Origin: an uncultured Alphaproteobacteria bacterium
GTDB lineage: Bacteria; Pseudomonadota; Alphaproteobacteria; HIMB59
DNA length: 55,721 nucleotides
Reading direction: 5' to 3'
Assembly: GCA_902617465.1 (NCBI GenBank)
Contig: CACMWO010000002.1
Location: 1 to 55,721 of the forward strand
Positions 12,460 to 21,870 of this stretch are shown piece by piece. The position numbers and the translations under genes were made by a program. The notes beneath the pieces were generated by a model. It searched no databases. It was not told the origin of the DNA and saw only the letters and a list, made by a program, of their open reading frames with translations. The first letter of the stretch is position 1. Each line of letters starts with the position of its first letter.

Positions 12460-12849
12460 ATGTCTAAAAACCTCAATGAAAATCAACTTCTAGCCGTTCA
12501 GTTAGTAGCACAGGGTAGGTCGGGCAAGGAGATAGCTAAAGAAATATCTGTTACTGAAGAGACAATCTCTAGATGGAAAAAACAACCAGCGTTTATTGCG
12601 CTGGTTAACGACCTATTGGGTCAGCTCAGAGACACCACGCAGCAGAAGATGAGAAATTTAGTTCTCCTTGCTTTAGAGATATTAGAGAAAGAGTTATTTG
12701 ATGAGAGTAATAAGAATAGAGTAAATATCGCCCTTAAAGTCCTCAATAACTACAAATTCAGCACCTTAATAGACCAGAAAATCGGTTCAGAGAATGCCGA
12801 TACTATTGAGCGTAAGCAGTTAGATAAAAAGTTTGCAGAGATGTTCTGA
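12460..12849 (+). CDS. HTH protein resembling phage terminase small subunit / transposase HTH
   Basis: A 129-residue protein whose first ~50 residues are a helix-turn-helix: LNENQLLAVQLVAQGRSGKE, then EISVTEETISRWKKQPAF. This pattern is typical of terminase small subunits and insertion-element HTH domains (phBC6A51-like). The C-terminal half is helical and charged and ends EMF. No large terminase, portal or transposase lies nearby. It is therefore either a phage/element remnant or a stand-alone DNA-binding regulator. It sits 18 bp upstream of the alginate-lyase-like gene. Confidence 0.6.
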   Translation: MSKNLNENQLLAVQLVAQGRSGKEIAKEISVTEETISRWKKQPAFIALVNDLLGQLRDTTQQKMRNLVLLALEILEKELFDESNKNRVNIALKVLNNYKFSTLIDQKIGSENADTIERKQLDKKFAEMF

Positions 12850-12867: not shown

Positions 12868-12951
12868 ATGAAAACCCTCTTAGCCCTATTTTTATTAATC
12901 CCTAGTTTGAGTTGGGGACTTACTTTCAAGGATGGGAAACAAGTTGATAGC
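12868..12951 (+). repeat. Signal-peptide cassette, copy 1
   Basis: The 28-codon leader encoding MKTLLALFLLIPSLSWG plus LTFKDGKQVD. Over its first 16 codons it differs from copy 2 at only about four bases. Over the following ~11 codons the differences are all synonymous. Confidence 0.75.
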
Positions 12952-14223
12952 GATCAAAATAACTTAAAAGATTACGATACAAATATTGAATGGAAGATAA
13001 ATAATCCATTTCAAGTTTTCTTACCTTTGGATCAATTACAAAGCAACATTGATTTTTATAAATCTTCTAATAGTGCATTTATTTGTAAGCATGATGAAGA
13101 TGGTTTTAATAATGATTTCGTTACTTTTAACAACAATGAATTTCGCGAGTCATTAAAGCAATCATTTAACAAAACATTTACAGATTGGGATACCATGGAT
13201 GAATTTTCAGCAGCAATGTTAGAATTTTCTCTAGCAAGTTGTAAAACAATGTTATCTGGTATTGAAAAAGATAAAAAAGAATTATTAAGTTTCATCATTG
13301 AAATCTCAAAATTAGAAAAATTTTATTCTATTACTCCTGAATGGGTAATGGATCATAGTGGACCTTTTTGGTTTGCACGACATATACCTCCTATTTTAAT
13401 GGCATGGAGTTATGTACGCGATATAGCAACTAATGAGCAACAGCTACAAATGCACAAATGGATTGATAGCTTGTACAATCAATTGATTGTTGATGATAAT
13501 TGTCTTGAGTGGAAAGCGGGATCTTGTTTTGCAAATCATGCTTATAGTGTCCGCAATGCATTGATAACAATGGCTATTATGTTAGATGATGAAAAAAAGT
13601 TTAACCATAATGTTAAAGCTTTTTTTAAAGTTTTGAAAATGAATATTCGCAAAGATGGTTTACTAGAAAATGAGCTACGTCGAGGACATTGTAGCTCTCA
13701 TTACCATATATTTACCTTTAGTGCCCTTTTTGGTGTTTTACAGAACTTACAAGCGCAGGATTACGATTACTACAACGAGGAGCTTGGCAATGGTTTTACT
13801 ATTAAAGATATTATAAATGCAACATTCAATAAATTCCTAATTTATCCAAAAAAATATTTAGCTTCAGTTAAAGATCCATATGCGATAGATACATGCCCGA
13901 CTAAAGGTCAGAAATTTGTTTATGAGTATGAGCAAATTGATTTTTTTCAAACATCATTATTTGGCTTTGTTTCTCTCTTTGAAAATAATGTAAATAATGC
14001 ACAAGAAATTGATTTTTCAAATATTCAAAAGCTTCAAATAATTTGGGATGAAAAAAAATCAGATGGAAACAAATATATCTATGAGGATTATAATGAAAAT
14101 GGAAAGGTAGATTCATTATATTATGTTACCTACGATGTGAGGAAAGATATGTATAATCATACATGGGGAAATGCCGTTTATGGAGGAAATCCTATACTTC
14201 TAAATAAAATTAATTTTGATTAA
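12868..14223 (+). CDS. Secreted PL5-like alginate lyase-fold protein
   Basis: A 451-residue exported protein. Residues 1-17 (MKTLLALFLLIPSLSWG) are a signal peptide followed by LTFKDGKQVD, a motif shared with the next gene. The middle resembles the (alpha/alpha) barrel of PL5 alginate lyases: Asn223-His224 (ANHAYS), then DGLLENELRRGH and Tyr279 in SSHYHIF. Arg272 and Tyr279 are 7 apart and His224-Tyr279 are 55 apart, matching my recollection of Asn191/His192/Arg239/Tyr246 in enzyme A1-III. The C-terminus holds an EF-hand-like DYNENGKVD. A role in cleaving alginate or a related uronate polymer is inferred. It overlaps nothing upstream and is 4 bp from the next gene's signal peptide start. Confidence 0.65.
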   Translation: MKTLLALFLLIPSLSWGLTFKDGKQVDSDQNNLKDYDTNIEWKINNPFQVFLPLDQLQSNIDFYKSSNSAFICKHDEDGFNNDFVTFNNNEFRESLKQSFNKTFTDWDTMDEFSAAMLEFSLASCKTMLSGIEKDKKELLSFIIEISKLEKFYSITPEWVMDHSGPFWFARHIPPILMAWSYVRDIATNEQQLQMHKWIDSLYNQLIVDDNCLEWKAGSCFANHAYSVRNALITMAIMLDDEKKFNHNVKAFFKVLKMNIRKDGLLENELRRGHCSSHYHIFTFSALFGVLQNLQAQDYDYYNEELGNGFTIKDIINATFNKFLIYPKKYLASVKDPYAIDTCPTKGQKFVYEYEQIDFFQTSLFGFVSLFENNVNNAQEIDFSNIQKLQIIWDEKKSDGNKYIYEDYNENGKVDSLYYVTYDVRKDMYNHTWGNAVYGGNPILLNKINFD

Positions 14224-14227
14224 ATTT

Positions 14228-14311
14228 ATGAAAACTATCTTAGCCCTATTGTTATTAATCCCTAGTTTGAGTTGGGGTTTAACATTCAAAGATGGAAAAC
14301 AGGTTGATGAA
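14228..14311 (+). repeat. Signal-peptide cassette, copy 2
   Basis: Second copy of the leader (MKTILALLLLIPSLSWG plus LTFKDGKQVD). The signal-peptide half is nearly identical in DNA to copies 1 and 3. The post-cleavage motif is shared only with copy 1. Confidence 0.75.
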
Positions 14312-15811
14312 GATAAAACATTTGAAATTATAGAAAATGAAAATTCTAATAAACCATCACAAGGAGAAATAGTTATTAAAAGAGTAAATGATAACGGTAC
14401 CCATTACTCTCCCGAATTCAAAATTAAAGGAAAATATGTCTTACCATTAAAATCTATTGTTACTAAGAATCCCCAAGGAGCTGCTGACAAACACGAATGG
14501 AGAGCAAAATTAGAGTCTTTCATGACAAATTTTTATGCTCTAGGAGATTTTAATAATGATGGTATTCAAGATTTTATCATTACTGCATTAAGACACTCTG
14601 AACAGCAAATTGATAGCGTTGACTCCGTAAACATTTATAAGTACAAAACGTCATCTAAGAGAAATTTCAAAGTATTTGCAGGTCATAAAAAAACAGGATG
14701 GGCTAATGACTATTACAGAAGTAGTGGCGAAGATATAACCCATTTGTTTGTTGAAGACCCTGAAATGGCAGGAGTAGCTGACCATCAGTTAGAGTCTCAA
14801 AGACCTTCGGTTGCCGATTTTAATGGAGATGGTATTGATGATGTATACATTAGCTCAGCAACACATACAGATAGAAAAACAGAAGGAGACGGTTTTTTTG
14901 GGGGGTACCATTCATACTATCTTTCACAATCAGACGGCACTTATAAAGAAAGTAGTCGTGAAATGATTAAAGGTTTGTTTGTTGACAAAAAAACAGGTAG
15001 ATACGTAGAGTTTTCACACAGGTCAGATATTGGAGATATTGATGGTGACGGAGATATTGATGTAGTTCATACAAGCGTTTCGTGGAAAGGTGATAATGGG
15101 TACATTATTTGTATGTACAATGATGGCAAAGGTAAATTAACCAGTAAACAATGTGGTGAGCAGTGGGGTAACAATGTTAAAATTGGTGACTTTAATGGTG
15201 ACGGTCATGCGGATTTACTTGTAGTAAGTCCAGATTATGATTGTCTTAAAGTACACAGTTTTACAGGGGTGCGTGAAACAAAACAAGCTACAAAAACTCG
15301 AAATCAAAGTATGCTAATATTTGGTAACGGTTCTGGTAAGTTCAAAAACAAGCAAGGTAAAAAGTTTATTGAATTTGGCAAACATGTGATGCATAACGGT
15401 CAGGATATCCCATTGTGTGAAATGCCAACTGCTACGGTAGCGGATGTAGATAACGACGGTGACTTAGATATTATTGGCAACACCATTGGATTTCTTTATG
15501 TTGGCGGTTACTTTCAAGTATTTTTGAATGATGGAAAGGGTAACTTTAGTTTAGGTCAACAAATTATTGGTGATACACCAAAAAAGCAATTTTCTCTTGA
15601 TAATTGGCCTACCCATGAAGCAACACATGGTAATCAAAATTATTGTTTCAATATTCATACCGTAGATTTCAATAATGATAATTTCCTAGACTTTATTTGT
15701 GATGGTGGCTTTATGCAACCCACAGATGGGTTTGTTTATGTTAATAGCGGAGACGGAACTTATACAGTTGCATCAGAGCAGTTAATAAAAAATCATGTAT
15801 CTTCATTCTAA
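14228..15811 (+). CDS. Secreted FG-GAP/VCBS-repeat calcium-binding protein
   Basis: A 527-residue exported protein: signal peptide MKTILALLLLIPSLSWG, then LTFKDGKQVDEDK. Six Asp-rich calcium loops of the FG-GAP/integrin-propeller type recur: GDFNNDGIQD (~106), ADFNGDGIDD (~196), GDIDGDGDID (~269), GDFNGDGHAD (~320), ADVDNDGDLD (~405) and VDFNNDNFLD (~478). This predicts a beta-propeller that binds carbohydrate or protein outside the membrane. I start at the ATG at 14228 because it begins the signal peptide. It directly follows the alginate-lyase-like gene, so the two may act together on a surface polysaccharide; that is inference. Confidence 0.8.
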   Translation: MKTILALLLLIPSLSWGLTFKDGKQVDEDKTFEIIENENSNKPSQGEIVIKRVNDNGTHYSPEFKIKGKYVLPLKSIVTKNPQGAADKHEWRAKLESFMTNFYALGDFNNDGIQDFIITALRHSEQQIDSVDSVNIYKYKTSSKRNFKVFAGHKKTGWANDYYRSSGEDITHLFVEDPEMAGVADHQLESQRPSVADFNGDGIDDVYISSATHTDRKTEGDGFFGGYHSYYLSQSDGTYKESSREMIKGLFVDKKTGRYVEFSHRSDIGDIDGDGDIDVVHTSVSWKGDNGYIICMYNDGKGKLTSKQCGEQWGNNVKIGDFNGDGHADLLVVSPDYDCLKVHSFTGVRETKQATKTRNQSMLIFGNGSGKFKNKQGKKFIEFGKHVMHNGQDIPLCEMPTATVADVDNDGDLDIIGNTIGFLYVGGYFQVFLNDGKGNFSLGQQIIGDTPKKQFSLDNWPTHEATHGNQNYCFNIHTVDFNNDNFLDFICDGGFMQPTDGFVYVNSGDGTYTVASEQLIKNHVSSF

Positions 15812-15826
15812 AAAAAATAAATATTA

Positions 15827-15877
15827 ATGAAAACTATCTTAGCTCTATTGTTTTTAATACCTAGTTTGAGTTGGGGA
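15827..15877 (+). repeat. Signal-peptide cassette, copy 3
   Basis: Third leader copy, identical to copy 2 over most of the 17-codon signal peptide (about three base differences) but lacking the LTFKDGKQVD continuation. Confidence 0.75.
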
Positions 15878-15959
15878 GATAATGACGAAAAAATTACAAC
15901 ACCCAAATTATCTATACCTTTCAACGATTACAGAGAAAATTCTGATAATAAAAGTAATA
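15827..15959 (+). pseudogene. Truncated third secreted-protein gene (signal peptide only)
   Basis: An ATG at 15827 starts a third copy of the same leader (MKTILALLFLIPSLSWG), then about 27 unrelated residues (DNDEKITTPKLSIPF...). The frame then runs straight into the antisense strand of tRNA-Ala and stops inside it at 16009. The last residues are therefore a translation of tRNA antisense, not real protein. I interpret it as a gene cut off at the tRNA 3' boundary, or a leader left without its cargo. It could still express a ~60-residue secreted peptide. Confidence 0.55.
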
Positions 15960-16035
15960 TGGTGGAGCCAAGGGGGATCGAACCCCTGACCTCTACGCTG
16001 CCAGCGTAGCGCTCTCCCAGCTGAGCTATGGCCCC
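15960..16035 (-). tRNA. tRNA-Ala (anticodon GGC)
   Basis: A complete 76-nt tRNA on the minus strand. The 5' acceptor strand GGGGCCA pairs with TGGCTCC (one G-U). The D-arm contains AGCTCAGCTGGGAGAGC, the anticodon stem CTACG/CGTAG closes loop CTGGCAG with anticodon GGC, and the T-arm is AGGGGTTCGATCCCC. The discriminator A and an encoded CCA end at 15960. Its 5' half (positions 1-38) is duplicated exactly at 21015-21052, marking it as an integration site. Confidence 0.97.
15998..16035. repeat. att-like direct repeat, left copy (inside tRNA-Ala)
   Basis: Thirty-eight bases from the anticodon loop to the 5' end of tRNA-Ala, beginning CTGCCAGCGT and ending ATGGCCCC, identical to the right copy. 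Similarity stops abruptly on both sides. Confidence 0.8.
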
Positions 16036-16132
16036 GACAGTTCGTTCACGCTTAATTCCTATGTTTTCCAAGCGTTATCAGACTTGATTCTAGTATGCGC
16101 TGAATCCACAATCAATAGAAAAATAAATTTTT

Positions 16133-16151
16133 GTGATAACATTGTGATAAC
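16133..16151 (+). repeat. GTGATAAC tandem repeat cluster, left
   Basis: Two direct copies of GTGATAAC (16133-16140 and 16144-16151) with an 11-bp period, each followed by ATT. They lie 98 bp inside the tRNA boundary and about 72 bp before the HNH-HIT start codon. They could be arm-type recombination sites or an operator for the gene. Confidence 0.65.
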
Positions 16152-16222
16152 ATTTTTTGTACACACAATTGCTAAAAATTAGTTTCAAATCCTTTATACT
16201 TATTTGATATTTAAACTTACTA

Positions 16223-17209
16223 ATGGGTAACTATAAAAATATAAAAAACTATATTTCTCAGAAAATGAGAATGTCTCATATTTATCAACCTTTGATGTTA
16301 ATGGAACTTATGAAAGGAAAGGGTAAAGCTTCGGGTCAAAAAATAGCCCAGGCTTTTTTAAGTTATGATGAGACTCAAATTGATTATTATAAAGAAATAG
16401 TCAAGCTAATGCCCTTTAAGTATTTATCTAAACACTTAAAGGAAATCAAAAGAGATAAAGATAAATATTATTATGATGGATTTGATTTATCTGATGCGCA
16501 AAGAAAAGAAATCATTGAGCTCTGCCAAGCAAAGTTAGATGAATATATTGATAAAAGAGGATTGAAGAAAATCTTCAAACATCGGACTCTAGCTTCAGGA
16601 GTCATTTCAGGAAGTATTCGTTATAAAGTTCTAACCCGAGCAAAGAATAGATGTGAGCTTTGTGGAATATCTTCAAAAGAAAAGGCCCTAGAAGTTGACC
16701 ATATTGAACCCAGAAGTTTAGGGGGCAAAGATGAATTGAGTAATTTCCAAGCTCTTTGCTATACATGTAATGCTCAAAAGGGAAATAAGGACAATACAGA
16801 GTTTAAAAAAATAATTGATAGTTATGAGAGTCGAGAGAAAGATTGTTTATTTTGTAATATTCCCAAATCAAGAATTATCAAGTCTAATAAATTAGCTTTT
16901 GTCATCGAAGACCAATACCCTGTAACTAAACATCATTGTCTTATTATTCCTTATCGGCACTCAGAAAGTTACTTTGATTTATATCAACCAGAATTAAATG
17001 CTATTAATCAGCTTATTAAAGAGCTGCAATCAGAATTAATAAATAAAGATAAAACCATAGAGGGCTTTAATATTGGCACCAATTCAGGGGAAGTATCGGG
17101 ACAATCAATATTTCATACCCATATACATCTTATTCCTAGGAGAAAAGGAGACTCCAAAAATCCACGAGGTGGCGTGAGGGGAGTAATAGAGTCAAAAAAA
17201 AGTTATTAA
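16223..17209 (+). CDS. HNH nuclease - HIT hydrolase fusion protein
   Basis: A 328-residue fusion. Residues 1-130 are a helical N-terminal region (ISQKMRMSHIYQPLMLMEL). An HNH nuclease follows: zinc Cys144/Cys147 in CELCG, the core VDHIEPRSLGGKDELSNFQA and CYTCN. Residues ~210-328 are a HIT domain with CLFCNIP and the catalytic histidine triad His298-Thr-His300-Ile-His302 in FHTHIHLIPR. HIT domains hydrolyse or transfer nucleotidyl groups, while HNH domains cut DNA. I recall similar HNH-HIT fusions in other bacteria, some in defence-rich regions, but no assigned function. It is the leftmost gene of the tRNA-bounded element, flanked by GTGATAAC clusters. Confidence 0.88.
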   Translation: MGNYKNIKNYISQKMRMSHIYQPLMLMELMKGKGKASGQKIAQAFLSYDETQIDYYKEIVKLMPFKYLSKHLKEIKRDKDKYYYDGFDLSDAQRKEIIELCQAKLDEYIDKRGLKKIFKHRTLASGVISGSIRYKVLTRAKNRCELCGISSKEKALEVDHIEPRSLGGKDELSNFQALCYTCNAQKGNKDNTEFKKIIDSYESREKDCLFCNIPKSRIIKSNKLAFVIEDQYPVTKHHCLIIPYRHSESYFDLYQPELNAINQLIKELQSELINKDKTIEGFNIGTNSGEVSGQSIFHTHIHLIPRRKGDSKNPRGGVRGVIESKKSY

Positions 17210-17248
17210 TAAAATACAAATTTTTTTCACAATAAAATTATAAACCAA

Positions 17249-17279
17249 GTGATAACATTTGTGATAACATTGTGATAAC
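17249..17279 (+). repeat. GTGATAAC tandem repeat cluster, middle
   Basis: Three direct copies (17249-17256, 17261-17268, 17272-17279) with 12- and 11-bp periods. They lie between the 3' ends of two convergent genes, so they are not a promoter operator for either. This argues for a recombination, replication or packaging role. Confidence 0.7.
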
Positions 17280-17284
17280 AAATG

Positions 17285-17668
17285 TTAGTGTGATTTTTTC
17301 AATTTATTTAGGAGGATAATGATGTTTTCGAAGTATTTTTCCTCCATTTTTCTTACCTCATTTAACTCTATTGTCTCAAGTGCATTTTTTTTTCGATTTA
17401 TTAGTCTGTACCTTACGTAAATAACAGCATCTCTTAATCCATATTTTTTTTCTAAAGCTTCAAGGACGTAATCCATCGCATCATAATAAAATGAATTTGT
17501 AATTTCTATGGAGTCCTCTAATGAATTTTTTTGAATTTTAATATTAATGTTGAAACTTAGGTCGAAGAGCCAATAGATTATCTCTCTCTTAGTTGGCTCT
17601 TCGTTACTGATATATTTATGGATGACCATTTGACTAAATTCAGGGTCATACAATGGCCTTCCAAACAT
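17285..17668 (-). CDS. Unknown 127-residue protein of the DUF2130 operon
   Basis: Not recognised. It is a mixed-charge, mostly helical soluble protein beginning MFGRPLYDPEFSQMVIHKYI, with a central region FYYDAMDYVLEALEKKYGLR and a Lys-rich end. No signal peptide, membrane helix or catalytic motif is visible. It starts 1 bp after the DUF2130 stop, so it is the last gene of a three-gene operon. Only the GTGATAAC cluster separates it from the HNH-HIT gene. Confidence 0.6.
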   Translation of the reverse strand: MFGRPLYDPEFSQMVIHKYISNEEPTKREIIYWLFDLSFNINIKIQKNSLEDSIEITNSFYYDAMDYVLEALEKKYGLRDAVIYVRYRLINRKKNALETIELNEVRKMEEKYFENIIILLNKLKKSH

Positions 17669-17669
17669 A

Positions 17670-18899
17670 TTAATTTATGACCTCCTCCTTAATACTTTCA
17701 ATTTTGATGACATTGGACTCTTCAAAATCAGTATCAACGAGCAAAGTAGACGATATTTTCTCATCCCCTCCAGCCATATCTGAAAATATTCTTCTAATTT
17801 GAGTCTTTTTTTGTTCAAGATTTTTCAATCTATTACCTCTTGATTTCTCAAAATAGCTAGAGTCTTTATCAATTATCTCAGCTTCTTTAGCAAACGAGTC
17901 AATCAGACTCCTTATTTTCATAGGAAGACTTGAACTGGTTAACCTATTGTATAGTTCTGATTGTTTTGTCTCAGACAGGCTATTGATTTTCTTAGAGTTA
18001 TGTAGATGTATCACAGCCTGCTTTAATGTTGCTATTATAAGATTGAGACTAAAATAACTCATTTTAATGATAACAATCCTTCCGCCAAACTCCCATTGAA
18101 CTCCTGTAAAATTTTTAGGAACTGAGGTTGATGCTATAATTGCAAAATCTAAGTTATTTCTGGTCATATCATCTTTGAGTTTTTCAACCCACTTTTTTGA
18201 GTAATTGAGAGTGTCTTTTGACTCTACACCAATAGTCCCAACATTCTTTCCTGCATCACGCACGATAATATGTACATCATCACCTAATGCACCTTTACCT
18301 ACAGGTTTCACATTACAGTCAGGAAATTGTTTCTTGATGAACTCCTCAATTACGTCCTCTTGAGCTTCTCCTTTAAGCTCAACATCTTTACCAGCTTTGA
18401 GTTTTTTATTTAACTCTTCAACTTCTTTTTCATATCTTGCAAGCTTTATATCTTTGGCTTTGCTATCTTTATCTTTTTGAAGTTTATATTCTTCAAATTC
18501 ATTTTTTGATTTAGAAGCACCAAGTTCAATTAGCTTGTTTTTTTCTTTTTGAAGTTTTGCTTTATTATCTTTTTTGATTTTCGCTTCAAATTGAATAATA
18601 GTCTTGCTAGCAATTTTTTCTGCTTCTTTAGCTATTGATAAATCAGCTTTCTCTTTATATGCTTTTATCTTAGCTAAGGCATCTTTGTTTGCTTTCTTTT
18701 GTGCCATTGCTTCAATTTGTTTTTTGTTACCCCTAGCCTCTGATACCTGAGCCTTAAGGGTTCTTATATGAAACTGTAGTTCTTTTTTAGTTCTCTCAGC
18801 TTCATCTTGTTGTTTCATGTATGAGTTGATTTTCTTTTCAAATTCCTCAGTACGTAAAACGCTACTTCCACAAAGTGGACATTCTATAGTTTTAGTCAT
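17670..18899 (-). CDS. DUF2130 protein: zinc ribbon, coiled coil, PD-(D/E)xK-like domain
   Basis: A 409-residue protein with three parts. An N-terminal knuckle has Cys7 and Cys10 (ECPLCG). Residues ~15-200 are a Lys/Glu/Ala-rich coiled coil. From ~205 comes a DUF2130 domain: LKGEAQEDVIEEFIKKQFPD, PVGKGALGDDVHI and VGTIGVESKDTLNYSKKWVE, in which the Asp and the ExK fit a restriction-endonuclease-like fold, then DFAIIASTSVPK. I recall the family as a predicted nuclease-like fold of unknown biological role. It overlaps the membrane gene upstream by 8 bp and abuts the 127-residue gene downstream. Within a tRNA-bounded element with an HNH-HIT protein, a DNA-processing or defence role is a reasonable guess. 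Confidence 0.82.
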   Translation of the reverse strand: MTKTIECPLCGSSVLRTEEFEKKINSYMKQQDEAERTKKELQFHIRTLKAQVSEARGNKKQIEAMAQKKANKDALAKIKAYKEKADLSIAKEAEKIASKTIIQFEAKIKKDNKAKLQKEKNKLIELGASKSKNEFEEYKLQKDKDSKAKDIKLARYEKEVEELNKKLKAGKDVELKGEAQEDVIEEFIKKQFPDCNVKPVGKGALGDDVHIIVRDAGKNVGTIGVESKDTLNYSKKWVEKLKDDMTRNNLDFAIIASTSVPKNFTGVQWEFGGRIVIIKMSYFSLNLIIATLKQAVIHLHNSKKINSLSETKQSELYNRLTSSSLPMKIRSLIDSFAKEAEIIDKDSSYFEKSRGNRLKNLEQKKTQIRRIFSDMAGGDEKISSTLLVDTDFEESNVIKIESIKEEVIN

Positions 18900-19248
18900 T
18901 TTTAAAGGCCTCCTTAGCCTTTCCCTGATTAAAGGACCTCATGTCCTTTTCGTTTGATAAATCGTCTACAAATTTTGCCTCTTCAAATCTGTAGACCTTG
19001 TTTTGAAATGAAAATATCCACCACGTTTTCATCATCCCTTCATCTGCCGCGTAGATAAATCCATGTTCGATTAATTCAGCCTCAGTGCCCAAGTTGAGCT
19101 CTTGGCCGACGGCGGCCCCGTTAGAAAGATTAGGCATATAAAGAACGGGGCCTAGAAACAAAAATGACCAAAAAGCAATAAGAAAGAAGAAAGGATAGAT
19201 GTTGTTAAAACACCTGTTTTGAGGGCTTTTTAGTTTTTTTTTGTTCAT
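18892..19248 (-). CDS. Single-pass membrane protein, unknown
   Basis: A 118-residue protein with a basic N-terminus, one hydrophobic helix (IYPFFFLIAFWSFLFLGPVL) and a soluble C-terminal domain, probably outside the membrane (ELNLGTEAELIEHGFIYAAD, then a Trp-rich patch MKTWWIFSF). No family recognised. It is the first gene of the minus-strand operon and overlaps the DUF2130 gene by 8 bp, so the two are translationally coupled. A membrane partner for a nuclease-like protein is a familiar pattern in defence modules but is only suggestive here. Confidence 0.6.
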   Translation of the reverse strand: MNKKKLKSPQNRCFNNIYPFFFLIAFWSFLFLGPVLYMPNLSNGAAVGQELNLGTEAELIEHGFIYAADEGMMKTWWIFSFQNKVYRFEEAKFVDDLSNEKDMRSFNQGKAKEAFKND

Positions 19249-19275
19249 AAGAGCAAAATAGGCAATTTAAATGTG

Positions 19276-19304
19276 TTTACAATAATCACATTGAATTTTA
19301 TACT
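19276..19304 (+). promoter_or_regulatory. Sigma-70-type promoter for the zinc-finger gene
   Basis: TTTACA at 19276-19281 and TATACT at 19299-19304 with a 17-bp spacer lie about 92 bp upstream of the 508-residue gene, in the divergent gap facing the DUF2130 operon. Confidence 0.6.
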
Positions 19305-19396
19305 AGTATGAATGTTAAAAAATAAAACACATCGAAAGACATTGAAATTTAAATTTAAGACTTACAAATAGCAAAATTATAAATATTTAACTTCTT

Positions 19397-20923
19397 ATGA
19401 AAAACAACAAATTAAATTTTAATTTAAAATGGTGGAAATTTGACAAGTACGAATGGCATGACCATAAAGAACTTGGTCCAATAATTAGACCTGCTCATGG
19501 AGCTAAATTTTCTGAGTATAATCCTTGGGAATTAAATGAAAAAAAGAAATCATCTAGTATGTACAATCTTCCATTGTATGGTTCTTTACTCTCTGAAATA
19601 GATGCTCAAAAGTATGAAGAGTTATTAATTACAATAAATTCTTATTCAGAGAATAATTTGCAACAAAATGATGAAAATATTGAAACTTTAGCAGATTTAC
19701 AATCTGAAAAAATTAGACTTGAAGCCCATATTAAAAGACAGATTCTTGTATTTGCAGAGGAATATGGACTGCTAGGAGTATTTTTTAATTACGCAAATAA
19801 AATGGTATGTCCAACTTTTTGGCATCCTATTTTCGATTTCAAAAAAACAGATTTTTCAAATAATAAAAAACCAAGTTATTTTAAATCAGAATATTACTTA
19901 AAGATAAATAGTTTCGATAATGAAGTTATTTCTTTAGATTTTAACCACTTGGACTACTTTTATTACCAAACTATAGGGCGGCAGTATCACGATATTTTAT
20001 TTGATTTCTATAATCATAGAAAAATTCCTGAAGAATTATATTTAAAAACTGTAATTCCCTTACATCATATTGATTTTTTTGATGGCGCTGAATGGAAAAG
20101 AACCCAAACAAAAGCAAATCTTAATCAAAAGGGTCTAGACTATTTTGAGGGTAAAAATTTTGATGAATTAATAAATTTAGGTGAGCATTTGGGTATTGTT
20201 GATGAAAAGTATTTAGAGAAAAGTTCAGAGCCAGGTCTGTATTATAATGTCAAACCACCATCTTTAGAACAACAATGGTATATAGACAACAAAAGACCAT
20301 ATTATGAAATAACTAGCATGGCCCCATTAGAGTTTTTTATACCATTTAAATATCAATCTCATTATTTTAAAAAAAAAGGTGGAACAAATTATATTTTACC
20401 TAGTATTTTATATGCCCATGTAAATAACCCTACAAGAACCTGGGATGAGAAAAATGGGACATATAATTATGATAAAAAAGATGAGTATTATTCTGACTAT
20501 TTTGAGTCTCTGACTGATATAATTATTTTTATTTCAACTTTACAAGAAACAGCAGAATTAGAAAATAAAAAGAAATCTTTAGCGGATGGAACATTTGAAA
20601 TCATGCCTGAGAATATTACAGGTAACATATCAGACTCAATAGATATAAACTCAAATATCTTTTTAAATAAATTTATTTCAAGAAATTATACAAGAACAGA
20701 TTACTCTAATATCGAAAATCCAATTACTTTTCGCTCACCATCATTGGCTGGTATGATTTCCGAGATGTTTTTAAGAGATAAACTTGATGGGCAACAATAT
20801 AGAAAATGTGCTTATGAAAAATGTAATCGATGGAGTATTATGAGAGATAATCAACTTTATTGTAAAAAACCAAGAACATGTGAACAGAAAGCAAATTATT
20901 ACAAAAGGAAAAATAAAAAATAG
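19397..20923 (+). CDS. Large unknown protein with C-terminal CGNR-like zinc finger
   Basis: A 508-residue protein. The first ~450 residues are not recognised. They are Asn/Lys/Tyr-rich with an early WHDHKELGPIIRPAHGAKF motif and a stretch PSLEQQWYIDNKRPYYEI. The C-terminal ~45 residues form a zinc-finger-like module: CAYEKCNRW, then LYCKKPRTCEQKANYYKR, i.e. four cysteines plus a basic tail, similar in layout to CGNR-type nucleic-acid-binding fingers. No recombinase catalytic residues (RHRY or Ser) are seen. It is the rightmost gene of the tRNA-bounded element and ends 10 bp before a GTGATAAC cluster. It could be a DNA-binding controller or an antiphage effector; function unknown. Confidence 0.6.
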   Translation: MKNNKLNFNLKWWKFDKYEWHDHKELGPIIRPAHGAKFSEYNPWELNEKKKSSSMYNLPLYGSLLSEIDAQKYEELLITINSYSENNLQQNDENIETLADLQSEKIRLEAHIKRQILVFAEEYGLLGVFFNYANKMVCPTFWHPIFDFKKTDFSNNKKPSYFKSEYYLKINSFDNEVISLDFNHLDYFYYQTIGRQYHDILFDFYNHRKIPEELYLKTVIPLHHIDFFDGAEWKRTQTKANLNQKGLDYFEGKNFDELINLGEHLGIVDEKYLEKSSEPGLYYNVKPPSLEQQWYIDNKRPYYEITSMAPLEFFIPFKYQSHYFKKKGGTNYILPSILYAHVNNPTRTWDEKNGTYNYDKKDEYYSDYFESLTDIIIFISTLQETAELENKKKSLADGTFEIMPENITGNISDSIDINSNIFLNKFISRNYTRTDYSNIENPITFRSPSLAGMISEMFLRDKLDGQQYRKCAYEKCNRWSIMRDNQLYCKKPRTCEQKANYYKRKNKK

Positions 20924-20933
20924 TGTAAAAAAA

Positions 20934-20953
20934 GTGATAACAATTGTGATAAC
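20934..20953 (+). repeat. GTGATAAC tandem repeat cluster, right
   Basis: Two direct copies (20934-20941 and 20946-20953) with a 12-bp period, both followed by A. They lie 61 bp inside the right tRNA remnant and just after the stop of the preceding gene. Confidence 0.65.
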
Positions 20954-21014
20954 AACCGGAAATTATTTGAAAATATTATTGAATTTAATGATTAATATAA
21001 AAAAAAGAATTACT

Positions 21015-21052
21015 CTGCCAGCGTAGCGCTCTCCCAGCTGAGCTATGGCCCC
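21015..21052 (-). repeat. Partial tRNA-Ala copy (att-like repeat, right)
   Basis: Exact 38-bp copy of tRNA-Ala(GGC) from its 5' end to the anticodon loop, with no anticodon 3' strand or T-arm, so it cannot be a functional tRNA. It is the displaced end expected after site-specific integration in which the element supplies a replacement 5' half to the intact gene. Confidence 0.85.
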
Positions 21053-21165
21053 TACGTCAGCATTATCAAGGATTTTATACAAATTGGTAGTTAGTTCAAA
21101 TCGTATTTCCTATAAGTTTCCGAGAATAAATACAAAGAAAGTGAACTATTTGATAAGTTAAAATT

Positions 21166-21489
21166 ATGAGACTCGTTCTGATATTTATATTCTCATTAAT
21201 TTCTATTTCCTCTCATAGCTATCATGAAAAAGATATAATTTATGATGAAGAGGAAATAATCTGTATTGCAACCTATGAGCTAGCCGAAGATTTTTTTTTA
21301 CAAATGAAAGACCCTAACACTTCTGAAGAAATGAATAAAAGAAAACAAGCTCTATTGGATAAATACGATGAGGGTCACTTTCCTCAGGAGGATATAGAAT
21401 TTTATACTCTTGAAATTCATTATGCATGGACTGCTAATTTTGATTTTTTACCACCAATTTTAAAAAATTGTCGTGAAAATATCCGTTGA
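21166..21489 (+). CDS. Small secreted protein, unknown
   Basis: A 107-residue protein with an N-terminal signal peptide (MRLVLIFIFSLISISSHS) and an acidic mature part containing two cysteines (EEIICIATYELAEDFF and ILKNCREN) that could form a disulfide. No family recognised. It converges with the small barrel-like gene downstream. It lies just outside the right tRNA remnant. Confidence 0.55.
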   Translation: MRLVLIFIFSLISISSHSYHEKDIIYDEEEIICIATYELAEDFFLQMKDPNTSEEMNKRKQALLDKYDEGHFPQEDIEFYTLEIHYAWTANFDFLPPILKNCRENIR

Positions 21490-21504
21490 TCAATTTGGGT
21501 ATTA

Positions 21505-21759
21505 CTACATTTTTTCCAACTTATATACGTCATCTACATTATTAAATTTAGCATCAAATTCCTTTGATCTTGGATCTTCAAACAAAGCATAAAATTTTTC
21601 CTCATCGGTGACATTTGCTACAATTATCACTTTTCCATCTCTGACAAATCCCATCTCAAATCCATCAGTATATTTCGCAATGTCATCTTTAAAAGAGTCA
21701 TACAATTTTAAGTAGTCTTCTTTAGTTCCGTTATAAGTAGATACAACACATAAATTCAT
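21505..21759 (-). CDS. Small alpha/beta-barrel-like protein, unknown
   Basis: An 84-residue soluble protein with a ferredoxin-like pattern: strand LCVVSTYNG, helix EDYLKLYDSFKDDIAKY, strands FEMGFVRDGKVIIVANVT, helix KFYALFEDPRSKEF and strand DVYKLEKM. This resembles small dimeric alpha/beta-barrel (ABM-like) proteins. A reasonable ribosome site (AAAGGAGAA) precedes the ATG. It is divergent from a protein of the same size and style. Function unknown. Confidence 0.6.
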   Translation of the reverse strand: MNLCVVSTYNGTKEDYLKLYDSFKDDIAKYTDGFEMGFVRDGKVIIVANVTDEEKFYALFEDPRSKEFDAKFNNVDDVYKLEKM

Positions 21760-21870
21760 AATTATTTTCTCCTTTAAACTAATTTACGTATTGTTCAATT
21801 TTAGAGATCAATATCTTTTGAATGAATTATTTTTAAATAAACTTTATAATAATTTATAGAGAGGACAGCT

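Follow-up and report, generated by a model that had tools for sequence, protein, structure and literature searches.

Origin of a leader shared by unrelated genes

How do neighbouring genes with unrelated products come to begin with nearly the same DNA, and is it the nucleotides or the encoded peptide that is maintained? The question is raised by a window of 55,721 nucleotides (contig CACMWO010000002.1, positions 1 to 55,721) from an uncultured alphaproteobacterium of HIMB59, a genus of tiny, streamlined ocean bacteria in which one leader stands before dozens of different secreted proteins. A first-pass annotation had offered two answers, that the leader moves between cargo genes by recombination or that it acts as a functional N-terminal tag for sorting or anchoring. 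Our analysis supports both, each for a different segment: the leader recombines, and the peptide that follows it, LTFKDGKQVD, is under selection as a peptide.

The leader is 51 bp long, with DNA of about ATGAAAACCCTCTTAGCCCTATTGTTATTAATCCCTAGTTTGAGTTGGGG, and its three nearly identical copies lie on the plus strand at 12868..12918, 14228..14278 and 15827..15877, as the annotation had placed them. It encodes a putative Sec signal peptide (MKTLLALFLLIPSLSWG) of the SPase I type (MKT-LLALLLLIPSL-SWG, with LTF after the cleavage site), which we recognized by reading the sequence directly rather than with a predictor, from its Lys n-region, hydrophobic core, small residues at -3 and -1 and lack of a lipobox Cys. 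In the first two copies LTFKDGKQVD follows immediately (12919..12948 and 14279..14308, plus strand); between these copies 4 of 51 leader bases and 6 of 30 tag bases differ, the latter changes leaving all ten tag residues the same, so that the synonymous pattern described earlier is confirmed.

The proteins behind copies 1 and 2 are unrelated. Cargo 1 (12868..14223, plus strand) is classed as alginate-lyase-like by its Pfam match (PF05426, E 3e-16, 60.1 bits against a cut-off of 22.2), and cargo 2 (14228..15811, plus strand) matches FG-GAP beta-propeller proteins (E 8e-21). The sole significant BLASTP match between them covers residues 1-30, in place of the full-length paralogy that simple vertical inheritance of the leader would predict. 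The annotation's claim of a third unrelated cargo did not stand. Copy 3 heads a 60-aa open reading frame whose tail (15878..16009, plus strand) runs into the tRNA-Ala(ggc) gene that anchors this variable site (15960..16035, minus strand) and ends antisense to it. The near-identical genome G014 has the same sequence as the window up to the leader ATG, departs there and rejoins in the tail. Because the same C-terminus closes a longer open frame in G014, copy 3 is best read as a leader fused to what is left of a gene, with no third cargo of its own.

Distribution and cargo of the leader

A search of relatives found the leader DNA in 39 of the 52 species genomes of genus HIMB59/AEGEAN-169. A sample of 385 genomes drawn from the whole class contained it only within the genus, and the other genomes, about 380, lacked it. 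Exact matches in GTDB contigs comprised 23 stretches, every one in uncultured marine alphaproteobacterial records, and two pattern scans of viral contigs gave no match. A combined leader and tag profile matched 48 of the 52 genus genomes, and the genomes sampled from the rest of the order gave no match.

The collection comprised 122 candidate genes and 36 cargo clusters, with cargo types that, by Pfam, included alginate-lyase-like and glucuronan-lyase-like enzymes, FG-GAP proteins, alpha/beta-hydrolases and small secreted proteins. Among the untagged small cargos (e.g., L105:4701-6076, L119, L122), a Cys falls within mature residues 4-14 in 17 of 22, often as LxC, and many have another Cys near the C-terminus. 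These small proteins may form one divergent, fast-diverging two-cysteine secreted family, and in view of their shared Cys pattern there are fewer unrelated cargos than the first count of 31-36 clusters would indicate.

Codon choice distinguishes shared DNA from a shared peptide. Taking one gene per cluster, we computed the fraction of same-residue pairs that use the same codon and compared it with 500 simulations, which take the sequences as independent. For the leaders of 31 cargo clusters the fraction was 0.747, against 0.361 expected (z about 22) and a highest simulated value of 0.419; for 11 cargos of clearly different type it was 0.78 against 0.36. The rare codon CTC (background 4%) occupies leader residue 4 in 21 of 27 cases, and TTG (background 12%) occupies residue 8 in 28 of 31, while codon sharing over the 15 codons that follow the leader is at chance (z 0.4). 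On these statistics chance is excluded, and the leader codons point to shared DNA rather than to convergent peptides. A simple duplication, in which one secreted ancestor kept its leader as its body diverged past recognition, would account for the tandem arrangement and for small untagged cargos that possibly form one divergent family. We nevertheless judge it extremely improbable, given that the cargos belong to distinct Pfam families, that leader codons agree across clearly different cargo types and that the first 15 post-leader codons are unshared.

Cargo switches at the leader

The window and G014, whose flanks are 98-99.7% identical, differ by an extra PF14099 lyase gene in G014, and the junctions fall inside the leader. 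Leader 2 of the window corresponds on its upstream side to the G014 lyase leader and on its downstream side to the G014 FG-GAP leader, the two being joined through a 32-bp stretch common to both (14246..14277, plus strand), the putative recombination junction; the arrangement in the window is the one expected if two copies of the leader had recombined. Most of the genomes seem to come from amplified single cells, and because amplification can create chimeras where short direct repeats occur, this single junction could be an artefact; a second locus, beside tRNA-Arg, is backed by several genomes. There, G004 and G027 (L105 and L068) share 96% identity between -4500 and +47 and are unrelated beyond, and in another pair (L067 vs L084) one gene between two leaders has been cleanly lost. 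The FG-GAP gene of G014 (L047:11335) is interrupted near codon 104 by an in-frame stop and may be a pseudogene or reflect a sequencing error.

The same pattern recurs across the genus. Among 17 distinct cargo pairs with shared upstream DNA, the cargo switches at the leader edge in 16, one pair being unresolved, with homology stopping at +35 to +52, or at +68 to +78 where both cargos are tagged. A further 39 distinct pairs have the same cargo behind different upstream DNA, and in 28 of them homology starts at -4 to 0. Crossovers within the leader are also preserved: the hybrid leader of L108 matches the 352-aa gene of L068 over its first 12 codons and the 310-aa gene of L060 over the remainder. 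Together, the edge switches, the same-cargo pairs and the hybrid leaders bear out the proposal that the leader recombines between cargo genes.

Selection acting directly on the leader nucleotides, through codon pausing, mRNA structure or a regulator site, could produce the position-specific codons with no recombination at all, but it fits these comparisons poorly. Orthologous cargos that are 98-100% identical have leaders only 76-80% identical where the upstream DNA differs, which speaks against nucleotide constraint on the leader; moreover, unrelated cargos share upstream DNA together with the leader, and tagged genes at other loci have quite different leaders. We consider this explanation very unlikely and retain recombination as the source of the shared leader DNA.

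Leader genes in tRNA-anchored islands

Strong-leader genes are concentrated beside tRNA genes: 54 of 66 lie within 4 kb of one, compared with 11% of control positions (20 control stretches). Leader loci also contain partial tRNA copies, and most relatives have no leader genes at the tRNA-Ala site of the window. These features agree with tRNA-integrated genomic islands, which adjoin a tRNA gene and have a partial copy of it at the far end. A leader gene is found within 5 kb of seven of the 15 accessory integrases, and an integrase is present in islands L061, L057, L123, L119 and others; none was seen in the window's own island. An integrative element at tRNA-Arg was seen at L061, L057, L123 and L119. 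Its excisionase-like, DUF1376-like and integrase genes are about 95% identical between some species, and its cargo region, which includes leader genes, differs completely.

A site-specific recombinase that used the leader as its attachment site, inserting cargo cassettes as in integrons, would account for breakpoints at leader edges and for accessory integrases near leader genes. Against this, crossovers occur at varied points within the leader, as in the L108 hybrid and as expected of general homologous recombination, the sequences that resemble attachment sites are the partial tRNA copies rather than the leaders, and the array in the window has no integrase. We rate such a recombinase as quite unlikely and favour general homologous recombination between leader copies.

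Directly 5' of the leader array lies a gene for a phage terminase-small-subunit-like protein (12460..12849, plus strand), which was found only in G000, G010 and G014, with a remnant in G030 that lies on the same contig as the tRNA-Ala of that genome. This lone gene hints at a phage-satellite origin. On the other side of the tRNA gene, about 5.8 kb of the window (16036-21834) is missing from the near-identical G014. The segment contains a 5'-half copy of tRNA-Ala (21011..21055, minus strand), a possible attachment-site repeat, and genes for an HNH+HIT fusion protein with weak PADLOC similarity to PtuB and ThsC, a DUF2130 protein and an orphan 508-aa protein.

A selected peptide behind the leader

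Directly after the predicted cleavage site, LTFKDGKQVD occurs on lyases (PF14099, PF05426), FG-GAP proteins, alpha/beta-hydrolases and two unassigned families, mainly on polysaccharide-lyase-type enzymes. Its codons are shared only at background level (0.546 vs 0.534, z 0.5), and over seven codons pN is 0.055 and pS 0.75, a signature of strong purifying selection on the peptide that agrees with the earlier reading of its synonymous differences. The tag is missing from homologous lyases (L085, L066) and from an FG-GAP protein that shares 71% identity with a tagged counterpart, and it also occurs with unrelated leaders, on proteins of 552, 621, 717 and 465 aa. These comparisons show a separate, modular, selected mature N-terminus that has been gained or lost within homologous families.

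The tag adjoins the leader and, in the first two copies, shares an upstream boundary with it, as it would if it had no function of its own and were hitch-hiking with the leader. We find this unlikely, since the tag accompanies the unrelated leaders noted above, its residues are fixed while its codons are at background, and codons 13-21 after the tag start are unconstrained (pN/pS 0.65/0.63). The alternative that we favour, selection on the mature peptide itself, raises the question of what the tag does. A role in type II secretion is unlikely, secretins being rare in the genus (5 of 52 genomes, none of them among the 10 most complete), and their near absence suggests that tagged enzymes are placed in the periplasm or envelope. 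Our guess is that the tag serves to dock them to a shared partner in the envelope. A search for relatives of known structure gave nothing significant for the 423-aa and 621-aa tagged proteins, and no binding partner for the tag was found.

A model for cargo exchange

We propose that the 51-bp segment, which encodes a complete Sec signal peptide, serves as an exchange adaptor for exported-protein genes in tRNA-anchored islands. Because many cargo genes start with nearly the same 51 bp, leader copies could recombine with one another, and homologous recombination between them would insert, delete or replace cargo behind a fixed upstream region. Every exchange would leave an in-frame export signal, and repeated exchange would hold the leader DNA homogeneous. 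The window would then represent one such array beside tRNA-Ala, in which genes for a lyase and an FG-GAP protein are followed by an empty leader fused to a remnant. LTFKDGKQVD would be an older, separate element, kept by purifying selection on polysaccharide-lyase-type cargo, that probably docks lyase-type enzymes to a common envelope partner. We hold this reading, of a recombination adaptor in tRNA-anchored islands combined with a separately selected tag that probably docks lyase-type cargo, with considerable confidence. We infer that RecA-type recombination performs the exchange and that the islands carry cargo between cells. ComEC had no match in the 52 genus genomes, and ComEC-type natural competence was set aside as a route of DNA entry. 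A more speculative version, which we put forward only tentatively and which may well prove wrong, is a plug-in export system, in which the leader adaptor would export any captured gene in frame and a post-cleavage address peptide would assign polysaccharide-degrading cargo to one envelope partner.

If this model is right, recombination at leader junctions would give streamlined ocean bacteria a route to change their exported proteins, polysaccharide-lyase-type enzymes included. It also makes the LTFKDGK tag a specific and testable candidate for an envelope sorting or docking signal. Homology of leader DNA and selection on the mature N-terminus are usually confounded and are here separated.

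Relation to known systems

In conotoxins, prochlorosins and mycoplasma surface lipoproteins, a constant leader precedes a variable body, and the bodies form one paralogous family; the HIMB59 cargos, in contrast, come from unrelated families. The nearest precedent is the phytoplasma SVM signal-peptide motif (PF12113), which likewise starts different secreted proteins, the effectors SAP11 and SAP54 among them (PMC8026896), in genomes with mosaic clusters named PMUs or SVMs (PMC3743221). Pfam scans of the leader-bearing proteins gave no match to PF12113. The HIMB59 system differs in that its host is a free-living marine alphaproteobacterium, its cargo includes polysaccharide lyases, and junctions within the leader are seen between close genomes.

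Flexible genomic islands with replaceable gene content at equivalent positions, in the form of phosphate and phosphonate islands, have been described in HIMB59 (PMC10734472), and the leader islands belong to the same clade and likewise have replaceable content. That paper mentions neither a signal peptide nor FG-GAP; PMC10734472 and PMC10308909 do not describe polysaccharide-lyase-type exported enzymes, and a keyword search of these two papers and of a Pacific gyre paper (PMC11366302) found no passage on such a leader. Tycheposons and other tRNA-anchored marine elements or phage satellites are tRNA-flanked and have a tyrosine recombinase and variable cargo (PMC10872708, PMC11389934). In a comparison covering tRNA, integrase and variable cargo, the leader islands resemble them, and differ in that only some have an integrase. 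Two Chalcone_3 proteins (L134:2701, L139:2701) have a similar leader peptide (MKKLLALLTLIPSLSW) encoded by different codons, and their leader is perhaps independent or older.
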